From positions 1 through 24,906 of IMG/VR virus record IMGVR_UViG_3300020205_003601: a stretch of DNA of 24,906 nucleotides. One strand, written 5' to 3'. Below, one piece after another: positions 4,919 through 24,309 of the stretch. Position 1 is the stretch's first letter. Every line of letters starts with the position of its first letter. The notes under the pieces are model-generated. The model did no database searches, was not told where the DNA came from, and was given only the letters and a program-made list of their open reading frames with translations. Position numbers and translations under genes: made by a program. The DNA is from a virus.

Positions 4919-5478
4919 CAGATTCTCAAATCCACAACGATTGCTTTTTGGCCAGTCGTTTTCTTGAGGGAGCGATTATAGGCAATTAAAAGATTTCGCA
5001 CAACAACGTCAGGTGCGCGTTTTGCTACTTTTGCCCTGGCCGGAAGCATGAATGGCCGAGCAGGCATTGTGGTGCTTCCGAATTCAAGTGTTCGTGCGAA
5101 TGGCGCGGTACTACCGAACTCTGCAGTTGCTGGGTTTTGATTGAATTTAGAAGTAACTGTTTGATAAATACTCGGCTCTAGTTCTTCGCCTTGTTGCGCA
5201 GCGGGTGGCTGTCCTGGCATAGAGGACATTCTTTCAGCACCTTTTTTGTAATACTTTTTGTAACTTCCCTTTTTGCCGATTAAGAGTTTTGTCTCGTTGA
5301 AACCGATGTTCGATAATTGCTCTGCGGCGACTCGCATCTGAGCAATTCCAGACAAAACCATGTTCAGTAGTCGCCTGTCTATCCCCTTGAATGCATCGTA
5401 AATGCTGCCCGTATACGTGAAGGCCTTGAAGGTTTCCTTGCCGCCACCAAAGTTGCCTGTTGAACTTATTGTCGCCAT
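4918..5478 (-). CDS. HK97 gp10-like neck / tail completion protein
   Basis: This is a 186-aa basic protein. It has a helix-rich N-terminal half (DRRLLNMVLSGIAQMRVAAE), a Lys/Tyr-rich loop (KKGSYKKYYKKG), MPGQPPAAQQGEEL, and near the C-terminus FARTLEFGSTTMPARPFMLPA. The pairing of 'tLEFGT' with 'aRPFMlPA' is the hallmark of the HK97 gp10 family of head-tail joining proteins. It lies between the head closure and tail terminator genes, as in HK97-like phages. The ATG follows the upstream stop by one base, so translation is probably coupled. Confidence 0.85.
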   Translation of the reverse strand: MATISSTGNFGGGKETFKAFTYTGSIYDAFKGIDRRLLNMVLSGIAQMRVAAEQLSNIGFNETKLLIGKKGSYKKYYKKGAERMSSMPGQPPAAQQGEELEPSIYQTVTSKFNQNPATAEFGSTAPFARTLEFGSTTMPARPFMLPARAKVAKRAPDVVVRNLLIAYNRSLKKTTGQKAIVVDLRI

Positions 5479-6997: not shown

Positions 6998-7540
6998 TTA
7001 GTGGACGTCGATAATCAAATGAATTCTATCAGTGAGTCCTTCGTTATGAGCACTATGATATTTCCCTGTATTATCCAATTCCCAGAACTCCGACTCCCTG
7101 AAGTGTTGCTTTTTATCTTCAACAACAAAATAGCATTGGTCATTTGTTGTGATAGGCAAATGAATCCGCCTAGTCGATTGCAAAAATTCACCTCTATCCA
7201 TATGGGTTCCAATTGAAGATTTTGCTTTCAGCAAAACTATATTTGCTCTTTTGATTTCTGAAGGTTCATTAATCGACAAAAGATATTCGGAGATTTGATT
7301 CAAGTATTTTTCAAATAATACATATTTTGGATGCTCAATTTTTCTGTAAGCCTTTTTGACATCATAAAGAAGCGGTATGGTCATTGTGTCTTTATGACCA
7401 ACAATGTTTGTTTGTCTATAAGTGAATTCTTTCCAGTTATCACTAGGCAAAGATAGTATAGAAATTTGTAGTTCGTCCCAAAAATTTGGGCACTGCCCGA
7501 TAAATCTAAATTCAAAAGATTTATCTTTGAGGTCTTTCAT
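6998..7540 (-). CDS. Aspartyl/asparaginyl beta-hydroxylase-like Fe(II)/2-oxoglutarate oxygenase
   Basis: This 180-aa protein has the core of the Asp/Asn beta-hydroxylase family (double-stranded beta-helix oxygenases). The residues are H113-x-D115 in GTHMDRGEF, R125/H127 in RRIHLPITT, the distal iron ligand H162 in YHSAHN, and R172 in DRIHLIID, which would bind 2-oxoglutarate. Family members hydroxylate proteins or small molecules; the substrate here is unknown. The gene is much richer in A/T than its neighbours: 7261-7320 has 15 G/C of 60, against 36 of 60 at 7621-7680 in the capsid gene. The ATG lies 10 bases after a GC-rich hairpin and has no shine-dalgarno. It is a likely transferred accessory gene placed inside the virion module. 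Confidence 0.8.
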   Translation of the reverse strand: MKDLKDKSFEFRFIGQCPNFWDELQISILSLPSDNWKEFTYRQTNIVGHKDTMTIPLLYDVKKAYRKIEHPKYVLFEKYLNQISEYLLSINEPSEIKRANIVLLKAKSSIGTHMDRGEFLQSTRRIHLPITTNDQCYFVVEDKKQHFRESEFWELDNTGKYHSAHNEGLTDRIHLIIDVH

Positions 7541-7594: not shown

Positions 7595-8860
7595 TCAGGC
7601 TTCTGGTGCGGCGTCGAATTCAACTTCGACAAACGACTCAGGGCGCTTGACTGCAAGCGCAAGGCGCTGCTCCGCCAGAACCGCAACTGCGTTCCTGATG
7701 AAGAAGTCGCTGTGCTGCTCGGCAACGCGGATGCTGCCTTCCATGCGGTCGTACAACGTGGCGCCGATACCGAACGAACCAACAAGAGCGAAGCCCTCGG
7801 TGATTGCCGGAGTCATTACCATTGGTAGACGCCACAGGCGTGCTTCGGCACCGAGAGAAACCGACATGACCATCAAGTGACGCTCTTCAGCATCCTTGGT
7901 CAGTTCGATGTCTTCCATGTCGTTCGGGTGAACGATGATGCCCGTTGGCTCGTAGTAGGCGAGCAACGACTTGGTGATAGCGCGACGCACTGCGTCAATT
8001 CGCGTATCGCCAACGGTGCCTGCGCTCCACACTTGCGACTGGATGCCCGAAGTCTCACGGATACCGGTCAGGTTCGAACCTGTGCCGTCACCGTTAAGAA
8101 TTTGGTCATCTTCCACAAGACGAAGGCCGTACAGCAACTCGTTGTCGATGATTCCACGAAGGGTTGGTTCATCGTCAAGTACGTTGCGGTGAGCAACTTC
8201 GAAGTGAGCAATCGTGCGCACTGGGGCTTGTACACCAACCACTGTCATGGACGACTGCGGCTTGGAAGCGAACACTGCAGGTGAACCTGAGCGCTCTGCA
8301 ACTGTTGCAGCGTTGTTGGTAAATCCGCTCACACGGAAATACTCAATCATGTTCGTGGTGGTCTGTTGTACTGGGAACAAGTCGCGAACTCGCGAAGTGC
8401 GCTTGGCGCGCTCAACGATGCCTTCACGCTGCGGGGTGCCGAAATCGCCAGGCGTACCTGATGGCAGTGCAGTGAAGATGTCCTTAACTTGGAATGGTGC
8501 ATTCATGCTGTAGCCATTACGGCCATTGCCGATGCTCTTGAACTCGTCAGACTCAATGAAACGCTGACCAAGGGACTTGCCTTGGCTTGAGGTCAGAATC
8601 TTAGGAGCCACTGCTGATGCAGATGAATTCTCTGCCCATGCCTTGACTTCTGAGAGACCTTCCAGCGCCTCAATTTCTGAACGGATTTCGCGAGCCTTGG
8701 CAAGTCCTGAACGGAATGCCTCAACATGCTTTGCTTCAACTTGAACTTCTGGGCCGCCCTCTTCACGGTTGGCCTCGACATGGTCGACAATTGTGTCGTT
8801 CTGTGCGAGGACATCCTTCAGGGCACCCTTAAGTTCCTTCAAACGGCTATCGTAAGCCAT
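7595..8860 (-). CDS. Major capsid protein, HK97 fold
   Basis: This 421-aa protein has the HK97 arrangement. Residues 1 to about 95 are a charged helical delta or scaffolding region (RLKELKGALKDVLAQND, HVEAFRSGLAKAREIRSEIE). The capsid domain follows, with SLGQRFIESDEFK, NMIEYFRVSGFTNNA, VGVQAPVRTIAHFEVAHRN, the 'l-x-GDGTGSNLTGI' loop and FALVGSFGIGATLYDRM. The C-terminal strand contains EQRLALAVKRPESFVEVEF. The family polymerises into the icosahedral shell, and the delta region is normally removed by the phage protease after assembly. The start follows AGGAG at good spacing, and the gene has its own promoter and terminator. Its G+C is visibly higher than that of the flanking genes. Confidence 0.95.
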   Translation of the reverse strand: MAYDSRLKELKGALKDVLAQNDTIVDHVEANREEGGPEVQVEAKHVEAFRSGLAKAREIRSEIEALEGLSEVKAWAENSSASAVAPKILTSSQGKSLGQRFIESDEFKSIGNGRNGYSMNAPFQVKDIFTALPSGTPGDFGTPQREGIVERAKRTSRVRDLFPVQQTTTNMIEYFRVSGFTNNAATVAERSGSPAVFASKPQSSMTVVGVQAPVRTIAHFEVAHRNVLDDEPTLRGIIDNELLYGLRLVEDDQILNGDGTGSNLTGIRETSGIQSQVWSAGTVGDTRIDAVRRAITKSLLAYYEPTGIIVHPNDMEDIELTKDAEERHLMVMSVSLGAEARLWRLPMVMTPAITEGFALVGSFGIGATLYDRMEGSIRVAEQHSDFFIRNAVAVLAEQRLALAVKRPESFVEVEFDAAPEA

Positions 8861-9267: not shown

Positions 9268-9451
9268 CTTCGCCCAATTGAAAAAAATTCCTAAAAGCCT
9301 CTGCTAAATTTTTGCCCTCTTCGGTTGGTCCGTAAAGCCACTCCCCATCGTTGTCTATTCCGACAACTTCTATCAGCCCAATTTCGCGTAAGTGATTTAT
9401 CTCTTTGATTAATTCTTCATCGTGATCAAAAGGGGAATCGCTAAGCGACAT
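9257..9451 (-). CDS. Small winged-helix-like protein
   Basis: From the ATG at 9451 this gives 64 residues. That start has AGAGG about nine bases upstream and overlaps the phosphoesterase stop by 11 bases. A longer frame exists, but its extra residues lie inside the phosphoesterase gene and look like a shadow. The sequence ELIKEINHLREIGLIEV, then GEWLYGPTEEGKNLAEAF, has the helix, beta-wing and helix pattern of a winged-helix domain ('l-i-x-G-x-x-x-x-x-T-x-E-G'). It could be a regulator of phage or host genes. Confidence in the exact function is low. Confidence 0.65.
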   Translation of the reverse strand: MSLSDSPFDHDEELIKEINHLREIGLIEVVGIDNDGEWLYGPTEEGKNLAEAFRNFFQLGEDDE

Positions 9452-10625
9452 ACTCAACACCTCTGAATATCCCTCTGCCGTTATAAATCCACATCTGTTC
9501 GTAATTGAACCACTCTTCTCCGACGCCCTTTGGTTGATACTGAACAAGGGCAAGTCCTTGCTGCCAGTTTTCCGCACCCTGCATTAAAGGTCTGCCAAAC
9601 TCATCTGAACCAGACTTAACTGAGGGTACAGCACCGTCGATTCTGCACAGACATCCCGGACTTGCGGCCATGATGGTTCGTGGTCCCGACTCAGATACTC
9701 GTGTTCTGTACGCAACCTCCACACGATGAATGTGTCCATAGATAACAGATTTATGTGCATCATTTAGATACTTGGTTGTTGTTGAACTGTTTGAATTAAC
9801 CCTGTCGCCATGCCTAATAATCAAGTTCTCATTTAGCGCAATGAAGGATTCGGGATACCCCGGAAGGTAATCAACACCAAAGTCGTCCATTCGGCAAAGG
9901 TTCGGAACGGAAAGCACCGGCCAATTATCTCGTAACTCATCATTGAGTTTTCCGCGCGTCAATCCAAACGCCGCCTCTGCATTTGACTGGATATACCTTG
10001 CAAGACGTGCTTCGTGGTTCCCTGCAATCCAGGTTATCTTTGCGTTTGGTGCCGCGGTTCTTACTTGGGCGCAAAGTAATGTCGCCCTATCGATGGTGGC
10101 TTGTGTCAATTGTTTGAATGTTGGCGCAGTTAAATATTTTCCAAACTCGGCAAAGTCAAGATTGTCTCCAAGCATGACAACCCGGTCTGGGTTTACGTCT
10201 TCAACTAGTTTTAGCGCTACAGAAAGCGCAGCCTCATCATGAATTGGTTCAAGTTCTGCATTCTGCTCTAGTGATTTTTTGTAATAGCCCATTTGGATAT
10301 CCGGCAAAATAACTGCGGTCTCCCAATTTTTTGTTTTGCGAGATTTGCCTTTATTTTTTGGGACGTTGTATTTTGGTCCCTGCTGAACAACGGGCCATTG
10401 TGGACCCTCTGCCCACTTTGGACTCAAAATAAGACTTGCTCCTTTTAGGTCGTGGATTATCGCCTCTCCGGATTCGTCTTTGGTGACAGTTTGCCACTTA
10501 CCTATTCGCATTGATTTGATTGAGCCGACGTCTTCGGGTTTTATGTTGTGCTCTTTTAGTAATTTTGCAATTGTCTCAATGCTTTGATTGGCTTTTGCTT
10601 TTTCCATATCGCTCGAAAAACTCAT
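9441..10625 (-). CDS. Calcineurin-like metallophosphoesterase
   Basis: This 394-aa protein has an N-terminal region of about 100 residues, which may bind a partner or nucleic acid, and then a calcineurin-like phosphoesterase domain. The metal-ligand motifs appear in order: D109-x-Q111 (ILPDIQMGY), G153-D154-N155-L156-D157, G202-N203-H204-E205, H272 (RHGDRV) and G297-H298-I299-H300. The first motif has Gln where the family consensus is D-x-H. Members hydrolyse phosphoesters, including nucleic acid ends, cyclic nucleotides and proteins. The substrate is unknown here. The ATG overlaps the helix-turn-helix gene upstream by four bases (ATGA), and AAGG lies nine bases before it. Such genes are frequent in actinobacteriophages. 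Confidence 0.85.
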   Translation of the reverse strand: MSFSSDMEKAKANQSIETIAKLLKEHNIKPEDVGSIKSMRIGKWQTVTKDESGEAIIHDLKGASLILSPKWAEGPQWPVVQQGPKYNVPKNKGKSRKTKNWETAVILPDIQMGYYKKSLEQNAELEPIHDEAALSVALKLVEDVNPDRVVMLGDNLDFAEFGKYLTAPTFKQLTQATIDRATLLCAQVRTAAPNAKITWIAGNHEARLARYIQSNAEAAFGLTRGKLNDELRDNWPVLSVPNLCRMDDFGVDYLPGYPESFIALNENLIIRHGDRVNSNSSTTTKYLNDAHKSVIYGHIHRVEVAYRTRVSESGPRTIMAASPGCLCRIDGAVPSVKSGSDEFGRPLMQGAENWQQGLALVQYQPKGVGEEWFNYEQMWIYNGRGIFRGVEYVA

Positions 10626-12418: not shown

Positions 12419-15019
12419 TCAGTCATTTACTTCTTCTTTCGTCAATGGTTCAGTGATGTAGCCAGCCTTAATCATAAGATTATCTACTTCATGGTCGGAC
12501 TTTAGCGAAGGTACTTCAAAGCCTCCGTCACGATAATGTTTCGCAAGATGATTGTAAACCGCTTTTCTATCTGCACCACGCAAAACAGTTCCACCTCGTG
12601 CGCCGTTTAGAACTGACATCTGAACTCTTAGTTCACCCATTGCAGCCGCTCCGGCTTGTCCATCTTTAGAAATGTGATGGTGGATGAACGTGTAATGGGT
12701 TTTGCGAGTTCCATCAGTGTTGGGCAACTGGTACGCAAAAATCTTTCTAAAGTAAGAAGGTGACTCTGGAGAACGGACAGCCAGAATTGCACTCCTGTTA
12801 ATTGGCGTATCGTCTCTTACTGCAGTTGAGTGACTACGGATTGGCCCACCGGCTTTTGATTCAATTGCTTCCCAGTCGGCTCCCTCTTCGCTTTCTTCCC
12901 ACTCAGTGATTGCTTCGGCGTAAGACTTGACCCCATCCAATTTGACAACTCCATCAGGGATTACCGCAAACCTGCATTTACCTTCTTCTTGCACTGTTTG
13001 TTTGATGATAGAGCAAACCCCATCACCTTTGTACAAAGTGCAATTTGAGCACTTCACTCCGATGTCTTTAACATCATTTTCTGCTGGAGAATCGTATGCA
13101 GCGTAAATTCCACTACCGTCTTCGTCGAATTTTCCGTAGACAGTTGCAATCTGTAGAAGGGACTCGTGTAGCGCCGCTTCTTCTGCCGAAAGCAGGAACC
13201 TGTGTCCGATGTGCTTTTGCTCTATGGTCTCAAATTGTGCTTTTTCTGCTGCATAAAGAGCAGCCATGTGGCGTCGTGCTTCGGCAAGGGTGTCGTGACA
13301 TCCACCTGGTACTGGACTGTCTTCACCCTCTTTTACAACTGCGTATCCGCCACAACCAGACATGTTCTTGGAGATGCGATACGGCTTACCTTCGGCTGGG
13401 CGACGACGACGAGGACGACGAGCACCAGGGCGACCAACAACACCTGGACGATACGGCGTCCCGAACGAACCGGGGTTTCCTTCTGGCATGTCTGTGTAGA
13501 TGTCTTTGCGACTGCTAAGGGGGTGAGCAGATGGAAGAAGGTCCGTGTCATATGCGGTGCGACGGAAGCGGCCAGTGCGAAGCGCAAACAAAAGACCGTT
13601 GACTCTTGCCATTGCCCATTGCTCGGGTCCCGTAACATTTGGACGCACCGACCCTGGGTTTGAGCGATAAGCGCCGACGCCACGTCGGAAACAAGCCGCG
13701 AGCATGGAATAAGTTGCTCTTTTGCCCGCAGAGTCTCCATACTTCTCATTGTGGTCCGCGACCTTCTTTCGTAGTGCTTTTTGCACACGAGCGGAGAGAG
13801 GTGCCTTCTCTTCGAGATTCTCTGGGCTGAATTGTTTTTCGTCGCGGCGATTCATGGCCTCAACAAGTTTTGTTGCCCAGGTTCGTCCAGCATCTCCACC
13901 CCAGAGTTTCCATGCAATAAGTCCAGCACCCGGATATCCATCTGCGCCTGGTTTGCTATTTGCTGGAGTACGAAGGTCAACTTCGTGGCGTGGGAAATAT
14001 CGAGCAATATGACGAACCTTCTCTGGACCGGCTACGGAATTATTAATCAAATAGCGAGCCGTATTCTTGCCAACTGAGGTACCCCCGCGATTGTATTCCT
14101 TAGACATGTCAAGGCCCATTTGTGCTTGTTTCTTGACACCAGAAGGAATGCTGAAATTAAGGTCGTCGTATTTGCCGGCCTTTTCTTCGTATTCCGCATA
14201 CTCTTTTTCGTCTTGGCGGAAATCTTCAATGACGCGGACATCGGAAACATTTTTGATGACACGACGGTCCGTACGCTGATGTGAGCCGTTTTCCAATATC
14301 GCATAAACACGAATTGTCACTACAGGGTTATCACTCGTCGCCTCAAGGGTCTCCGAGGTTTCGGGAAGCCTTACTTCTCCTGAGCGAGTTACCTTTTCAA
14401 CAATTCCGTGTGCTGACTGTGCTCTGTCTGGGGGTTTCGGCACGGAGTAAGAAACAGGCGTACCGACCATTACATCTTCCGGTGAGGCTTTCTCTTCTTC
14501 AATTGTTAAATCATCTTTGACGCTGAGCGTACGAGTGTTTGGCGCTGCTCCAAAAATAACTGGAGAGTATTCGTAAAGTTCTAAGGCTTTAATGAAACGA
14601 ACGCCAGTTTTTTCATCAGTTGTAGACTTGCCTTCTGGCACCGAATATCCAATTGACCACTCTTGTTCTTCAGCAAAAAACTGAACATCGTAGAAAGCAT
14701 CGCGACCACGGCTAGTGTTTAAGTTGAACTGCATTTTTACGAGTAGCGCACCGGCATTCTGTGCGCGAAGGTCTTCCGGTAGACGCGAGTCATCAGGAAG
14801 TAATTCTTCGACCTTAATCGTCTTTGCTACCGGAATGTTGGTGTCATGAGACCAAACGCCTTTAGGGTTGCGCTTGCGCAGAGTGTTTTTATATGCGCCA
14901 GGTTCAATGACGTCATTTACAGAATCCACAATGTTGGTAACAGAAACGATTGCCTCAACGATTCCATCCGCGTCATTCAAGCCACGAACTGATGAAACTG
15001 GGACGTTCTTTCGGTCCAT
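12419..15019 (-). CDS. Giant multidomain prohead protease (HK97/S78-like) fusion protein
   Basis: The ATG at 15019 has AGGAGG at good spacing and gives 866 residues; an upstream in-frame ATG adds nine unsupported codons. Residues 1-165 look like an HK97-family prohead protease, with H58 in GVWSHD, S122 in EWSIGY and an acidic 'ELYEYSPVIFGAAPNT' block. Then follow a TUDOR-like beta module (about 185-260), a helical module with LIAWKLWGGDAGRTWA (290-392), and a module with ACFRRGVGAYRSNPGSVRPN (408-500). An Arg-rich linker, PGARRPRRRRPAEGKP (531-546), comes next, then a GGYAVVKEG/GCHDTLAEARR module (550-592). A four-cysteine segment (C657, C660, C669, C682) precedes the domain shared with the next gene (725-850). 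Typical proteases of this family are about 200 residues, so this is an exceptional fusion or polyprotein. Confidence 0.85.
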   Translation of the reverse strand: MDRKNVPVSSVRGLNDADGIVEAIVSVTNIVDSVNDVIEPGAYKNTLRKRNPKGVWSHDTNIPVAKTIKVEELLPDDSRLPEDLRAQNAGALLVKMQFNLNTSRGRDAFYDVQFFAEEQEWSIGYSVPEGKSTTDEKTGVRFIKALELYEYSPVIFGAAPNTRTLSVKDDLTIEEEKASPEDVMVGTPVSYSVPKPPDRAQSAHGIVEKVTRSGEVRLPETSETLEATSDNPVVTIRVYAILENGSHQRTDRRVIKNVSDVRVIEDFRQDEKEYAEYEEKAGKYDDLNFSIPSGVKKQAQMGLDMSKEYNRGGTSVGKNTARYLINNSVAGPEKVRHIARYFPRHEVDLRTPANSKPGADGYPGAGLIAWKLWGGDAGRTWATKLVEAMNRRDEKQFSPENLEEKAPLSARVQKALRKKVADHNEKYGDSAGKRATYSMLAACFRRGVGAYRSNPGSVRPNVTGPEQWAMARVNGLLFALRTGRFRRTAYDTDLLPSAHPLSSRKDIYTDMPEGNPGSFGTPYRPGVVGRPGARRPRRRRPAEGKPYRISKNMSGCGGYAVVKEGEDSPVPGGCHDTLAEARRHMAALYAAEKAQFETIEQKHIGHRFLLSAEEAALHESLLQIATVYGKFDEDGSGIYAAYDSPAENDVKDIGVKCSNCTLYKGDGVCSIIKQTVQEEGKCRFAVIPDGVVKLDGVKSYAEAITEWEESEEGADWEAIESKAGGPIRSHSTAVRDDTPINRSAILAVRSPESPSYFRKIFAYQLPNTDGTRKTHYTFIHHHISKDGQAGAAAMGELRVQMSVLNGARGGTVLRGADRKAVYNHLAKHYRDGGFEVPSLKSDHEVDNLMIKAGYITEPLTKEEVND

Positions 15020-15084
15020 CTGGCCTCCTGGCAAGCGACTATACATTCCGCAAGCGTTCAGAATACCTTAACTTGGCGTATAGT

Positions 15085-17241
15085 CTAAGCAAACGCAAGC
15101 GTGCAGCGGCAGTTGATGACTGAAGTTCCGTCACCCTCGAAGTCGCCAGGAAAGCGGACCGACTTACCCTCTACATTAAAATTGTCTTCAATCCCAACGG
15201 TTACATTTGCGACATGAAGATGTTCGGTTCGACCATCTTCACCTGGGGCATGAACCCATGTCTTTTTGGTGAAACCCAACTGGCGGGCAGCCCACAAAAG
15301 CCCAGCATTAAAAGCACCTGAGACCTCTGTTCTAACGATGGTTTTGATTCTCTTTGAGAAAGAATCACCCATCCATTGACTCAACTCTGTCAAAAATGAC
15401 GAGTGTGGTCTTCCTGCATAAGCCTCAAGCATCTTCTGCATATTTATGTTTGTAGTTGTGTTGACGAGCAGGAGGTTCGCAATCCTGTCCCCTATGAGTT
15501 CCTGAATGACCTTGCCCTGCATGTCCAGACGGTCAAAGCCGTCACTGGCTATATCGATTGCGCCGTCAAGGAATACTGCCGAAATCCAGGTATTCCCGTC
15601 TGTTTTTAGTTGCTGGTTCCAAACCTCGATATCGAAAAAGTCGTCTACTTTAATTTTCTCACCCGAGTCCCAGCGCTCTTTAAGTTTCTTGGACCCTGCC
15701 TTTTCCAAAACGACTCGCTGTTGACGCTTAAAATATGACGCGATTTGAAGGGTCACGCTGGCCTCAAGTCGGTCCAACTGCCGCGTTCTCCGTTGGATGT
15801 TTTCGGTGCCCTTTAACTCTTCTGCTTCCGAATCGGCCAGAGTGCTCATTGCTGGTTCAAAAATAGGCCGAGGGGACGGGTCGACCGTGTTTGGCGTATT
15901 TACATCTGATGGTGCCGTTGGAGCACCAGTTGTTGGTGCTGGGCTTTCAGATGGACCACCTGGACGGCGCGGATTCTGATTTGGATTTACGGAATCGCCC
16001 TGCCGTAAACCAGAGCCGTCTGTAGACATGACAACCGGAGACAGGTTTGTTGGAACAAGAAGTTCGTCAATTCCTACACCCTTACGTCCGGTTAGTTCTC
16101 GGTATTCATCAATACTGATTGCACCCTGCTTGAGTTCCTCAAGGTGAAACCTTGACCTCTCTCTGTCATCTCGACTGAGTATCGCCACAGAAGAAAGGTC
16201 ATAGGAAATAAACGTGTTTTCGCTATCGTCCAAAATGTCAAATGCGCGCTCGAGAAGCGTCAGGTGTGGAAGCATGGTTTCGCGCCAGAAAACTTCTAGT
16301 TCAACGTCAGCGTTTGCAAATGTCCTATTGGAGGCATTGCCAATTACAGATTCAGGAACTCCGAACGCTAAAAGAATTTCTTCTTTGTTTTGTCCTCGTG
16401 CTTCTGTGTATTGAGCATCTCTTTGGTTAACTCCAGTATCGATAAAACTTGCATCCTCAGCAGAAAGAACTGTGATGCGCCCAGCACCACCAATATTCGA
16501 GCCAGTTGTACCCCTGAACCTGCGGGCAATTTCTTCACTTTGTTCCTCCTCCATGTCGCCCTTAATGACAAGCATCCCGCCTGGACGACCATCGTTGATG
16601 ACAAAGTTCCTGTTGTAAACGCGAGAGTAATAGTCAAACTCAATTGCCAAACCAGCAGACTCTAGGGGTGTTTGGCCTTTGTATGGGTCGATTGGATGCG
16701 GGACGCGAATCCACAACATTTCTTCTGCCGGAACGACTTTCTTGGGCGTATTCGGATATTCAACAGAAAAACCAGAAACATGTTTTACTGCATCTGGAAT
16801 AGGAAAAACATACTGCGGCTGATGCAAGAACAACTGAGTTACATCGCCAAGTCTATTTCGTGTTATTTGAACATACGCACCAGTTTTTGACAAAAGAACT
16901 TGCGATGAGAGCATAAATCTAAAAGAGAATGCATCGATGTTTGGGTTTGGACGACGATTCAAAACGTCAAGAATTTTGGCGTCGTAGGTCATTTCTCCTA
17001 TGCGCCAATCACCAACTCGGAGTCCGATTGGCAATGATGCAGCATTCGAAGCAATTGCGTAAACAGACTTGTAAACCCACACAACTCGGTCAAGGGCTTG
17101 GTTAATGCCTCGCTCTACGTCCCAGCCATCTTTATATGGCGTTCCGGGCCTACTAACTCCAGTCGTTACATAATTCTTTTTTTCACTCAATCCCTCAAAG
17201 CCTTGACTGGTCGCCTGCTTAAATGTTCTTAGAAATGCCAT
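15085..17241 (-). CDS. Portal protein fused to MuF-like minor head protein
   Basis: This is a 718-aa protein. Residues 1 to about 400 are an HK97-type portal: VVWVYKSVYAIASNAASLPI, ILDVLNRRPNPNIDAFSFR, LLSKTGAYVQI, LWIRVPHPIDPYKGQTPLES, LLAFGVPESVIGN. A Pro/Ser/Thr/Asn linker (about 410-480) leads to a C-terminal region with coiled-coil tendency (RRTRQLDRLEASVTLQIASY). It ends in a MuF-like domain: VRTEVSGAFNAGLLWAAR, KKTWVHAPGEDGRTEHLHV, VRFPGDFEGDG and INCRCTLAFA. The portal forms the DNA gate and MuF-type domains sit inside the head. In most phages these are two genes. The ATG follows AGGTGA and lies two bases after the stop of the membrane protein gene. Confidence 0.9.
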   Translation of the reverse strand: MAFLRTFKQATSQGFEGLSEKKNYVTTGVSRPGTPYKDGWDVERGINQALDRVVWVYKSVYAIASNAASLPIGLRVGDWRIGEMTYDAKILDVLNRRPNPNIDAFSFRFMLSSQVLLSKTGAYVQITRNRLGDVTQLFLHQPQYVFPIPDAVKHVSGFSVEYPNTPKKVVPAEEMLWIRVPHPIDPYKGQTPLESAGLAIEFDYYSRVYNRNFVINDGRPGGMLVIKGDMEEEQSEEIARRFRGTTGSNIGGAGRITVLSAEDASFIDTGVNQRDAQYTEARGQNKEEILLAFGVPESVIGNASNRTFANADVELEVFWRETMLPHLTLLERAFDILDDSENTFISYDLSSVAILSRDDRERSRFHLEELKQGAISIDEYRELTGRKGVGIDELLVPTNLSPVVMSTDGSGLRQGDSVNPNQNPRRPGGPSESPAPTTGAPTAPSDVNTPNTVDPSPRPIFEPAMSTLADSEAEELKGTENIQRRTRQLDRLEASVTLQIASYFKRQQRVVLEKAGSKKLKERWDSGEKIKVDDFFDIEVWNQQLKTDGNTWISAVFLDGAIDIASDGFDRLDMQGKVIQELIGDRIANLLLVNTTTNINMQKMLEAYAGRPHSSFLTELSQWMGDSFSKRIKTIVRTEVSGAFNAGLLWAARQLGFTKKTWVHAPGEDGRTEHLHVANVTVGIEDNFNVEGKSVRFPGDFEGDGTSVINCRCTLAFA

Positions 17242-21189: not shown

Positions 21190-23115
21190 ATGACATCGCT
21201 AGACCAAAAATTTGTGGACTCCTATTCCCAAAAACAGGCTCCTTGGGGATTCAACGGAATGGGGGAAATTGTATTTTTGCGAACCTACAGTCGCAAGAAA
21301 AGCGATGGGAACAACGAGACGTGGACTGAAACTCTGCAGCGTGTCATTAATGGCGCTTGCGAAATTGGGGTCGACTACACACAGCAGGAGGCCGAGGCGC
21401 TCTTTGACCACATGTTCAATCTGCGTTGTTCGTTTTCTGGTAGGGCGCTTTGGCAACTCGGAACTCCACTTGTCCAGAAATTTAACGGGTCATCTCTCAA
21501 CAACTGCTACTTCACAAACATTGAAAAAATAGAGGATTTTGAACTCCTTTTTGAGTATCTGATGCTCGGTGGCGGTGTTGGTTTTTCTGTTGAGCGCTCC
21601 AAGATTCACGACCTTCCCAAGGTTAAATCAGGCGTAACTATTGCGCATGAGCGCACTAATGATGCGGATATTATTGTCCCAGACAGTAGACACGGATGGA
21701 AGCGCCTGCTTCATGCCGTATTGAAGTCTTACTTTGAAACAGGTAAATCTTTTACATACTCCACAATCCTCATTCGTGAATACGGCGCACCGCTCAAAAC
21801 ATTCGGTGGGACCGCTTCGGGGCCAGGGGCTCTCATTGATGGTATGACGGATATCTGCAACGTTCTTGATTGCCGCGTCGGTAAGAAGTTGCGTTCAGTT
21901 GATGTCCTTGATATCTGCAACATCATCGGTCGCATTGTGGTCTCCGGTTCCTCAAGACGCTCCGCTCAAATAGCGATGGGTGACCCAGATGACATTTTGT
22001 TTTTGCGCGCCAAGAACTGGTCATCCGGAACGGTTCCTGCGTGGCGAGCGAATTCAAACAACAGCCTGTATGCGGACTCTTACGAAGAAATCATGTCTGA
22101 ATTGTGGAAGGGTTATGACGGTTCGGGAGAGCCTTACGGTCTACTGAATAGAAAGTTGGCTCGCAGCGTTGGGCGTCTAGGCGAAAAGAACCCAGACCCA
22201 TCAATCGAAGGTTTTAACCCTTGTGCCGAAATCGCGTTGGCTGACGGTGAATCATGCAACTTGGCAACCATCTTCCTGCCGAATGTGGACAGCCTTGCCC
22301 AACTGAAAGAAATTTCAATCTTGCTTTACAAGGTACAAAAGCAAATCACCAGACTCGCCTACCCCTATGAGAAGACGACAAACATCGTTCGAAAAAATGC
22401 TCGTCTTGGCCAAAGTGTTACCGGAATCCTGCAGGTTCCCGCCGAAAAGATTGATTGGCTAGATGAATGCTATAAAAACCTTTCTGCTTTTGACAAAAAA
22501 TACTCAAAGGAAAGAGGCTGGCCAACTTCTGTTCGCCTAACAACAGTTCAACCATCCGGAACTCTCTCGCTACTTCCGGGTGCAACACCAGGAATACACC
22601 CAGCATTCGCGCAGTACTACGTGCGTCGTGTTCGCTTTGGTTCGTCTGACCCCCTTGTGGATGCATGTCGCAAGCGTGGCTACAAGGTTCAGTGGGACAT
22701 CGGCATTGACGGTCGGGAAGACCACTCTCGCTACGTTGTGGATTTCCCGTGCGCTTCACCAGAGGGCTCTGTCCTTGCTAAGTCGATGACCGCCATCGAC
22801 CAATTGGAGTGGGTGAAGAAGATGCAAACAATTTGGGCGGATAACGCTGTCTCCGTTACGGTTTACTACCGCAAGGAAGAACTTGGTCTCATCAAAGACT
22901 GGCTTTCTGAAAATTATGAAGACGGCGTAAAGTCGGTGTCCTTCCTTTTGCACAGCGACCACAACTTCCCACTCCCCCCGTACGAGGAGTGCTCAAAAGA
23001 GCATTACGAGAAACTCTTGGCTGGCATCGACTTTGGTGTTCCGCTACAGCAAAAGTCTTTTGATGGAGAGTTTCAGTTGGATGAGTGTGCCACTGGGGCA
23101 TGCCCGGTCAAGTGA
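21190..23115 (+). CDS. nrdJ: Adenosylcobalamin-dependent (class II, monomeric) ribonucleoside-triphosphate reductase
   Basis: This 641-aa protein resembles the monomeric Lactobacillus leichmannii-type reductase (about 740 aa), which makes dNTPs from NTPs. The catalytic set is complete. C106 (SLNNCYFTN) and C356 (GESCNLAT) form the redox pair, C345 is the thiyl radical site with E347 in NPCAEIAL, and the C-terminal pair C633/C638 lies in ECATGACPVK. The spacing C345-C356 (11) and C633-C638 (5) equals that of the model enzyme. 'VQPSGTLSLLPGATPGIHP' is the typical phosphate-binding loop. It needs B12 but no second subunit and no oxygen. It is the only plus-strand gene; GGAAGG lies about eight bases before the ATG. 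It probably boosts dNTP supply during infection. Confidence 0.95.
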   Translation: MTSLDQKFVDSYSQKQAPWGFNGMGEIVFLRTYSRKKSDGNNETWTETLQRVINGACEIGVDYTQQEAEALFDHMFNLRCSFSGRALWQLGTPLVQKFNGSSLNNCYFTNIEKIEDFELLFEYLMLGGGVGFSVERSKIHDLPKVKSGVTIAHERTNDADIIVPDSRHGWKRLLHAVLKSYFETGKSFTYSTILIREYGAPLKTFGGTASGPGALIDGMTDICNVLDCRVGKKLRSVDVLDICNIIGRIVVSGSSRRSAQIAMGDPDDILFLRAKNWSSGTVPAWRANSNNSLYADSYEEIMSELWKGYDGSGEPYGLLNRKLARSVGRLGEKNPDPSIEGFNPCAEIALADGESCNLATIFLPNVDSLAQLKEISILLYKVQKQITRLAYPYEKTTNIVRKNARLGQSVTGILQVPAEKIDWLDECYKNLSAFDKKYSKERGWPTSVRLTTVQPSGTLSLLPGATPGIHPAFAQYYVRRVRFGSSDPLVDACRKRGYKVQWDIGIDGREDHSRYVVDFPCASPEGSVLAKSMTAIDQLEWVKKMQTIWADNAVSVTVYYRKEELGLIKDWLSENYEDGVKSVSFLLHSDHNFPLPPYEECSKEHYEKLLAGIDFGVPLQQKSFDGEFQLDECATGACPVK

Positions 23116-24309
23116 TTAAGGACGCCCTGGAGAGTATCTCTTCGGAATCCACATCAATTGATTGCCGGTGTTGACACATACGTACGGAACCCCGTAAAAA
23201 ATTGTCCTCTCTGCTGGCTTTGTACAGTTCAAATCAAAAGTAGGTCTTTCAACTGGAACAGTTGGTTCTGGCGAGATAGTTACGACGGTCGTCGTTGTCG
23301 GATTAGTTACAACTGGAGCCACAGTCGTGGTTGTGGGAGCAACAGTTGTGGTCGTGGGAGCCACTGTTGTGGTCGTAGTGGTTACTGGAGAATCGTAAAG
23401 TCCCGAATATGCCAAAAGATTTGAACTGCCTTCTCCGACATTAAACAACGCTCCGACTGTTGCGGTTTTTCTCAAATTGACCATTATCTGGTTTTGCGTG
23501 AGTAATGGATTGACTTGAAGCATCAAGGCAGCAATACCGCTAACAATCGGTGCGGCATTTGATGTGCCGCTGCTTGAACGATAAGCATTTGTTCCTCCCG
23601 TCCAAGCACCGACAACATCCCACCCGGGAGCAAAAATATCCACACATGTACCCCAGTTGGACTGAGTGCCTCTAAGGTCTTGTGGGTCGGTGCCACCAAC
23701 CGTGATAACCGATGGTTCGGACGCTGGAGAGTAAAGACATGCATCTCTGTTGTTGTTGCCCGCTGCTCCAACAACAATCAAACCATCTTCGATAAGTCTG
23801 CGCACAGCACTGTTGAACACTTCATTTTTTGACAACGACACGCTCATGTTAACTACGGCTGGGACACCCGCCTGGTGATGATTTATTATCCAATCAAAAG
23901 CGTCGTACAGCGTCGCAATGGAGGTATTTATGTTGCGACAATTAAGAACCCTTACGGGAATAAGGCGAACGCTCTTGGCTACGCCATACGTTTTCCCACC
24001 TATGATGCTTGCGCTATGGCTCCCATGCCCACTGCAATCCTCGGTTCCCCATGAGTCCTCGGTCACTACGTTGTACCCGACATCAACACGACCTTCAAAT
24101 TCTTCGTGTGATGAATTTATGCCTGAGTCAAAAACATAAACATTTACCCCTTCCCCAGTCAGGGAATAGTTATACCTGTCGTCAAGAGTCGACTCGCGTT
24201 GGTCAATTCTGTCTAGGGCCCAGGCTGGCCGATAGCCGTTATCGTTCGGCAGCGTCTGGGAAAAAGACGTAGCGGCAGCAAGAAAAAGGGAAAGAAGGAA
24301 TTTAAACAT
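23116..24309 (-). CDS. Secreted subtilisin-like (S8, proteinase K type) serine protease
   Basis: This 397-aa protein has a Sec-type signal peptide (MFKFLLSLFLAAATSFSQT; cleavage near residue 17). The catalytic domain begins almost at once with RPAWALDRIDQRES. The active site is D61 (VYVFDSGI), H95 (SGHGSH), oxyanion N185 (GAAGNNN) and S250 (SSSGTSNAAP), where Asn replaces the usual Met after Ser. No I9-type propeptide, which most relatives need for folding, is visible. A Thr/Val/Ala/Pro linker (about 308-345) leads to a 40-residue module with C362 and C378 (NCTKPAERT, YVCVNTGNQLMW) like those on secreted actinobacterial proteins. It should act outside the cytoplasm on unknown proteins. Its stop abuts the reductase stop. 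Confidence 0.9.
   Translation of the reverse strand: MFKFLLSLFLAAATSFSQTLPNDNGYRPAWALDRIDQRESTLDDRYNYSLTGEGVNVYVFDSGINSSHEEFEGRVDVGYNVVTEDSWGTEDCSGHGSHSASIIGGKTYGVAKSVRLIPVRVLNCRNINTSIATLYDAFDWIINHHQAGVPAVVNMSVSLSKNEVFNSAVRRLIEDGLIVVGAAGNNNRDACLYSPASEPSVITVGGTDPQDLRGTQSNWGTCVDIFAPGWDVVGAWTGGTNAYRSSSGTSNAAPIVSGIAALMLQVNPLLTQNQIMVNLRKTATVGALFNVGEGSSNLLAYSGLYDSPVTTTTTTVAPTTTTVAPTTTTVAPVVTNPTTTTVVTISPEPTVPVERPTFDLNCTKPAERTIFYGVPYVCVNTGNQLMWIPKRYSPGRP
23315..23377. repeat. Three 21-base tandem repeats in the protease linker
   Basis: Units begin with GGAGC at 23315, 23336 and 23357 and differ at a few bases. Each encodes one TTTTVAP heptad of the linker. Repeat number could change by slippage without shifting the frame, so linker length may vary among relatives. 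Confidence 0.85.

Follow-up and report, generated by a model that had tools for sequence, protein, structure and literature searches.

We describe a head protease gene, from an uncultured freshwater phage group, that probably encodes a capsid-maturation polyprotein. Sequence comparisons suggest that this protein would cut itself once, in the immature head, at a site like that of the major capsid protein (MCP) and close to the K505/D506 bond; we put the probability of this reading at slightly under 60%. The argument centres on an element of ~25 residues in the protease fusion (KDIYTDMPEGNPGSFGTPYRPGVV), whose counterpart in the MCP of the same genome is KDIFTALPSGTPGDFGTPQREGIV. The initial annotation had offered two options, a self-cleaving polyprotein that delivers several internal head proteins or one large assembly factor, and had overlooked this element, which spans residues 505-530 just ahead of an arginine-rich run. 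The polyprotein appears to be the better-supported option, given the MCP-like site and the existence of fusions that join the same modules to protease and MCP. Delivery of several proteins is not supported, because the fusion has a single element and two products are therefore predicted.

Gene structure and protein modules

The window, meaning the whole stretch of DNA analysed, is an entire IMG/VR record of 24,906 bases and is probably a fragment. As first described, the protease of 866 residues is encoded by an intact reading frame, which lies on the minus strand (no strand had been given). The longest reading of this frame has 875 codons (15046-12422, with the first ATG at 15046). We prefer the shorter form because a perfect AGGAGG stands just 5' of the ATG at 15019 and because relatives begin at the equivalent ATG; residue numbers follow the 866 scheme (875 scheme minus 9). 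Downstream of the fusion come the 483-residue gene, with its scaffold-like tail, a metallophosphoesterase gene (9441-10625) and the HK97-fold MCP (Table 1). Elsewhere in the window, an aspartyl/asparaginyl beta-hydroxylase-like gene (6998-7540; Pfam E=2.6e-13) sits immediately past the MCP, among head genes, and a B12-dependent-type ribonucleotide reductase (21190-24309, plus strand) adjoins an S8 subtilase-like gene on the minus strand.

Table 1. Features of the protease fusion and neighbouring head genes (window positions; residues in the 866 scheme).
Feature	Position	Strand	Remarks
Portal-MuF fusion gene	15085..17241	-	upstream of protease fusion
Protease-fusion gene	12419..15019	-	uninterrupted ORF, 866 aa from ATG at 15019
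Predicted HK97-family S78 prohead protease domain, 1-176	14492..15019	-	H58, S122
TUDOR/SH3-like barrel module, 177-273	14201..14491	-	AF model m5540fcde7747
Module M2, WKLWGGDAGRTWA core, 281-403	13811..14179	-	all-helical
Module M3, RRGVGAYRSNPGSVRPN core, 404-503	13511..13810	-	all-helical
MCP N-arm/cleavage-border element KDIYTDMPEGNPGSFGTPYRPGVV..., 505-530	13430..13507	-	predicted scissile bond K505/D506
Arg-rich run, 531-546	13382..13429	-	missing in L027/L033/L044 clade
Module M5, YRISKNMSGCGGYAVVKEG..GGCHDTLAEARRHMAALY, about 541-601	13217..13399	-	small beta-hairpin and helix, pLDDT about 80
HiPIP-like four-cysteine module M6	12872..13156	-	C657-x2-C660-x8-C669-x12-C682
Module M7, 726-866	12422..12844	-	paralogous to N-terminus of next gene
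Next gene, 483 aa	10975..12426	-	N-terminal M7 copy, weak Hva1_TUDOR match, acidic scaffold-like tail
HK97-fold MCP with N-terminal delta (scaffold) domain	7595..8860	-	Pfam PF05065 E=5.8e-41; PHROG 10
Matching MCP element, K126-R151, KDIFTALPSGTPGDFGTPQREGIVER	8408..8485	-	scaffold (delta) domain/N-arm border

The N-terminal domain is a predicted HK97-family S78 prohead protease. It passes the cut-off of Pfam Peptidase_S78 (PF04586; E=6.6e-12, 46.3 bits against 21) and matches PHROG 80, 'head maturation protease' (E=1.7e-31); its NCBIfam TIGR01543 match (E=4.9e-14, 52.7 bits) lies under the equivalog cut-off of 59. Both proposed catalytic residues are in place, the histidine within GVWSHD and the serine within EWSIGYS. 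In Pfam the protease is the sole named part of the fusion, and Pfam, PHROGs and NCBIfam revealed no recognised effector domain.

The extra modules listed by the initial annotation were borne out. The TUDOR-like module is modelled as a Tudor/SH3-type barrel, an assignment at the level of fold only, with Z under 8: VIA-align scored it at Z 7.4 to the SAWADEE domain 4iup (67 aligned, 2.5 A) and Z 6.6 to the Tudor domain 6hq9 (58 aligned, 2.4 A), and the matches listed were mostly Tudor, chromo-barrel and other SH3-like folds. The two cores assigned to M2 and M3 mark real, separate families; that the modules might be duplicates of one another was ruled out (hhalign probability 0.3%). The four cysteines of M6 are conserved among relatives in the alignment. 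The domain reported as common to the next gene is M7: the last ~140 residues of the fusion share 53% identity across 138 aa with the N-terminus of that gene. A single-sequence query with M7 found no match in annotated phages, and relatives of it are present in IMG/VR. The first AF model spanned 183-875 (875 numbering) and was poor for M3, M6 and M7, so we assign no fold to M6 or M7.

The next gene alone matches Hva1_TUDOR (PF11160), weakly and under the cut-off (E=1.9e-4). It has a Tudor-like stretch and a very acidic tail that ends ITFEDLKEFHNLLKDLNK, like the tail of marine 510-aa proteases. This likeness suggests a scaffold part that has been split off or fused.

A copy of the MCP border in the protease

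When its own record was queried with the protease fusion (tblastn), the MCP gene matched around the Arg-rich run (E=1e-6). We built an HMM from 38 MCP N-arm segments alone. Among the 322 window ORFs it matched the protease fusion at E=5.5e-10, the next score being 0.089, and only the MCP and the protease fusion matched strongly; among 11,023 ORFs of the fetched loci, matches were confined to 114 MCPs and 70 protease-family ORFs. A back-translated DNA pattern of the element, run against 2.9 million viral contigs, returned 94 stretches, every one at an MCP delta/N-arm border or in the protease-fusion family. Neither the window HMM nor the viral-contig pattern placed the element in portal, next gene, tail or other proteins. 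In six records of 59-106 kb the MCP segment matches exactly two places, the MCP and the protease fusion, and among annotated phages with the element the matches inspected were MCPs.

Searches with six peptides, one of them from the element, found 41 related loci. About 30 relatives retain the long ORF with its modules shuffled (full-length forms run from about 750 to 945 aa). The Tudor module is absent from L012-L015; in L017, L023, L024 and others it lies behind M2 and M3 is gone; several ORFs of L025-L047 end in two M7 copies; and L069 is without M3 and M5. In the distinct relatives recovered, the element occurs in the protease fusion and, in the same loci, at the end of the MCP delta domain. 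It follows M3 in the window, the Tudor module in L017-L044 and M2 directly in L069 (there as the variant KDVFTDSPSGTPSSFGTPQ). The element is thus kept while the flanking modules change, and it is near-invariant among relatives of 40-97% identity.

In marine relatives with a similar MCP the protease has 498-533 aa, M7 included, and its acidic tail is like that of the next gene. The element was present in 15/15 distinct protease ORFs with M2 and absent from 24/24 without M2 (the 498-533 aa forms). These counts, like those of the matches given above, are non-independent samples, because the motif or part of it served as query in two of the searches and the loci share ancestry.

The initial annotation had singled out the Arg-rich linker at 531-546 as an easy cleavage point. 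This run is unlikely to be the cut point, because the clade of L027, L033 and L044 has lost it (FGTPQRIGTTPNAPEEKPYS) and has retained the element that precedes it.

Predicted processing and alternative readings

The invariant lysine of the element aligns with the lysine of the HK97 scissile bond Lys103/Ser104. The published HK97 cut site, K103/S104, lies within a disordered, flexible N-arm (PMC10275583). The alignment covered MCPs of Gordonia, Brevibacterium, Mycobacterium, Salinibacter, Paracoccus, Vibrio and Marinomonas phages, of D3 and of HK97. In three alignment modes the HK97 bond falls exactly on the K/D of the element, in an HK97-MCP alignment that is gappy near the site and of which an earlier, narrower version put the bond 4 residues later. 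From this correspondence we place the inferred cleavage at K505/D506 or within a few residues of it.

We propose the following course of events. The 866-aa precursor, of about 96 kDa, would be brought into the procapsid by the protease and accessory modules it contains. When activated, the S78 protease would remove the MCP delta domain and would also cleave the chain to which it belongs at the MCP-like site, with K505/D506 as the likeliest bond. The N-terminal product, about 56 kDa (57.2 kDa from the longer start) and basic, would comprise protease, Tudor-like barrel, M2 and M3. The C-terminal product, about 39.5 kDa, would begin with the N-arm-like stretch (predicted N-terminus DIYTDMPEGNPGSFGTPYR, against DIFTALPSGTPGDFGTP for the trimmed MCP) and continue through M5, the HiPIP-like module and M7. 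By analogy with the part of the MCP that stays after the cut, this product may remain in the head with its N-arm-like end docked on the inner shell.

The element could also act as a capsid-docking peptide that is never cut, so that the uncut fusion would bind the inner shell and bring protease and cargo to the procapsid. We regard this as unlikely. Beyond the predicted bond ~25 residues are shared, including FGTPxRxG[VI]V of the N-arm; a protease usually recognises a much shorter site, and the shared stretch may for that reason be a structural N-arm mimic. Against this, conservation sets in precisely where the alignment puts the HK97 scissile bond, and the same protease facing the same sequence would be expected to cut. 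Both roles, cutting and N-arm docking, may be true.

Distinctly less probable is a single large assembly factor, a scaffold-like maturation protein that is never processed, whether it is degraded or stays whole, and in which the element has no special role. The related 498-533 aa proteases do work without the element, but where it occurs it is strongly kept between modules and is common only to the expected substrate, the MCP. That the element is a functionless relic, left over from an ancestor in which protease and MCP were fused or from an exchange with the MCP gene by recombination, is very improbable, for although single ORFs combining these modules, protease and MCP exist, a relic should decay, and the element has stayed near-invariant through changes of both flanking modules.

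Self-cleavage at the MCP-like site also fits the arrangement of related genes. Where M2, M3, S78 and MCP form one ORF, processing would be needed to free the MCP. A tree of M7 copies shows two kinds, both found on either side of the gene boundary. Relative to the protease ORF and its downstream neighbour, M7 copies and the boundary itself shift, which would be expected of separately acting units.

A HiPIP-like module

The M6 alignment was compared with all PDB sequences (177,635), and the three best matches were high-potential iron-sulfur proteins (HiPIPs), with modest E-values: 3h31 (E=0.0024), 1hpi (0.01) and PioC, 6xyv (0.047). All four cysteines align with those of the HiPIPs, and their spacing is that of PioC. 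M6 therefore resembles HiPIPs in sequence and is a candidate Fe-S module, whose cluster binding we infer. We term it HiPIP-like and not a HiPIP member because the E-values are modest and because no Pfam or NCBIfam HiPIP model matched the whole protein at E<=1. AF model confidence across M6 is <50. HiPIPs, PioC included, are small electron carriers, whereas M6 is a module within a head protease. In L040 (6001-8838) the M6 slot holds a different cysteine-rich module, which resembles a gene of phage DSL-LC01 annotated 'high potential iron-sulfur protein'. The open-access literature yielded no account of a head protease with a HiPIP-like module, and no paper that combines HiPIP, phage and capsid.

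A more speculative extension, which we consider doubtful, is that the copied cut site and N-arm release a redox-active Fe-S cargo with a capsid-like docking end. One maturation event would then trim the shell and anchor an Fe-S protein, as part of a modular head-loading system with interchangeable slots.

M2 and M3 in other genes

Profile searches, suggested at the outset as a way to find the modules as separate genes, did find them alone or on other head proteins. A scan of genomes with a single M2 sequence gave nothing; with an alignment it gave 290 relatives. Many bacterial chromosomes encode M2 by itself, as a protein of about 105-116 aa, and in 61/80 kept loci it is alone in a protein under 200 aa. 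Such free-standing genes, without a Pfam family, occur in Mesorhizobium, Rhizobium, Henriciella, Verrucomicrobia and others (L151, L172, L199 and others, about 5001-5330). As a fusion, M2 is joined to S78 proteases, protease-MCP ORFs, portals and MuF proteins, and also to a DUF2213-like and a ClpP-like gene, both recognised by eye.

For M3, viral contigs yielded at least 582 relatives. Architectures include 18 viral M2-M3-S78-MCP ORFs and many portal-M3, portal-M2-M3 and M3-M2-MuF ORFs. One ORF of 1177 aa (L302:2339-5872) holds portal, Tudor-like, M3, M2 and MuF domains. What the phage carriers of M2 and M3 have in common is that they are procapsid-interior or portal-vertex proteins.

The joint model of M2 and M3 is all-helical (pLDDT 90.9) and has many viral-library matches to predicted prohead proteases and portals. 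Among solved structures it had no match (Foldseek gave E 2.1 at best, and VIA scores stayed under Z 5, an ordinary value for helical models). In jumbo phage PaBG, M2 adjoins gyrase genes and is annotated 'putative DNA-binding protein'. We considered and rejected a known DNA-binding fold for M2: Pfam and NCBIfam gave scattered weak matches, the PDB sequence search was unconvincing and there was no solved structural match.

Gene 11 of the haloarchaeal virus HGTV-1 (L052:2633-5299) is an 888-aa protease gene with M2 and, by eye, Tudor-like and M7-like stretches; the module set may therefore cross domains of life. The cultured Gordonia phage DalanDe has a 1633-aa 'capsid maturation protease' (gene 27; L397:125-5026), with S78 from near residue 1130 and about 1100 unexplained residues ahead of it, and in the related Gordonia phage Gray the protein is 455 aa long.

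Implications and comparison with known systems

Head maturation proteases are usually regarded as short-lived tools. The protease described here appears to transport cargo, to import an iron-sulfur-type module into the head and, through its copy of the capsid site, to serve as substrate for itself. If this is true, finding the MCP cut border copied in another gene would be a sequence-level sign that the product is processed and loaded into heads. The analysis also gives a context for M2, M3, the Tudor-like module and M7, families that Pfam does not name and that hundreds of viral contigs encode as parts of portals, proteases and MuF proteins; M2 is additionally a free-standing gene in many bacteria.

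Several known systems share parts of this arrangement. Polyvalent proteins of phages and conjugative elements hold many domains in one polypeptide, include portal/MuF fusions and have a peptidase proposed to release the domains, although their peptidases and domains are other than those of the protease fusion (PMC5512222). Tudor, SH3 and iron-sulfur domains go unmentioned in the text of that study, where 'prohead protease' occurs nowhere but in the title of a reference. In the giant Salmonella phage SPN3US, one prohead protease, gp245, processes itself as well as the MCP, the portal and internal proteins, all at one shared motif; its substrates are, however, separate genes, and what it sheds is its own 64-residue C-terminal propeptide and not multidomain cargo (PMC10052503).

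The Actinomycetia phage DSL-LC01 has M2 and M6-like modules in 'capsid maturation protease' genes that adjoin the 'high potential iron-sulfur protein' gene. Its modules are distributed over several genes and its genome is metagenome-assembled; the metagenome paper does not discuss HiPIP or capsid maturation protease. Herpesvirus assemblin offers a further parallel, as its protease-scaffold precursor is cut at a site that the substrate also has. What the assemblin precursor shares is the scaffold C-terminus, not a capsid-protein border, and its modules differ.

We found no report, in the open-access literature, of a separate protease that carries a copy of its own MCP's cleavage border. HK97 gp4 and gp5 provide the same S78 family, the MCP delta domain and the K103/S104 bond that aligns with the K/D of the element, but gp4 is a single short protein that lacks the modules, and no copy of the gp5 N-arm border is known in it. 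Longer MCPs that include a prohead protease domain have been described (PMC11409702). In the protease-MCP ORFs of Roseobacter phage CRP-831 and Synechococcus phage S-CBS3, M2, M3 and Tudor-like modules are joined to S78, and processing is expected. In those ORFs the MCP belongs to the chain and the modules stand ahead of the protease, whereas in the window a separate gene encodes the MCP, of which the protease has copied the N-arm border only.
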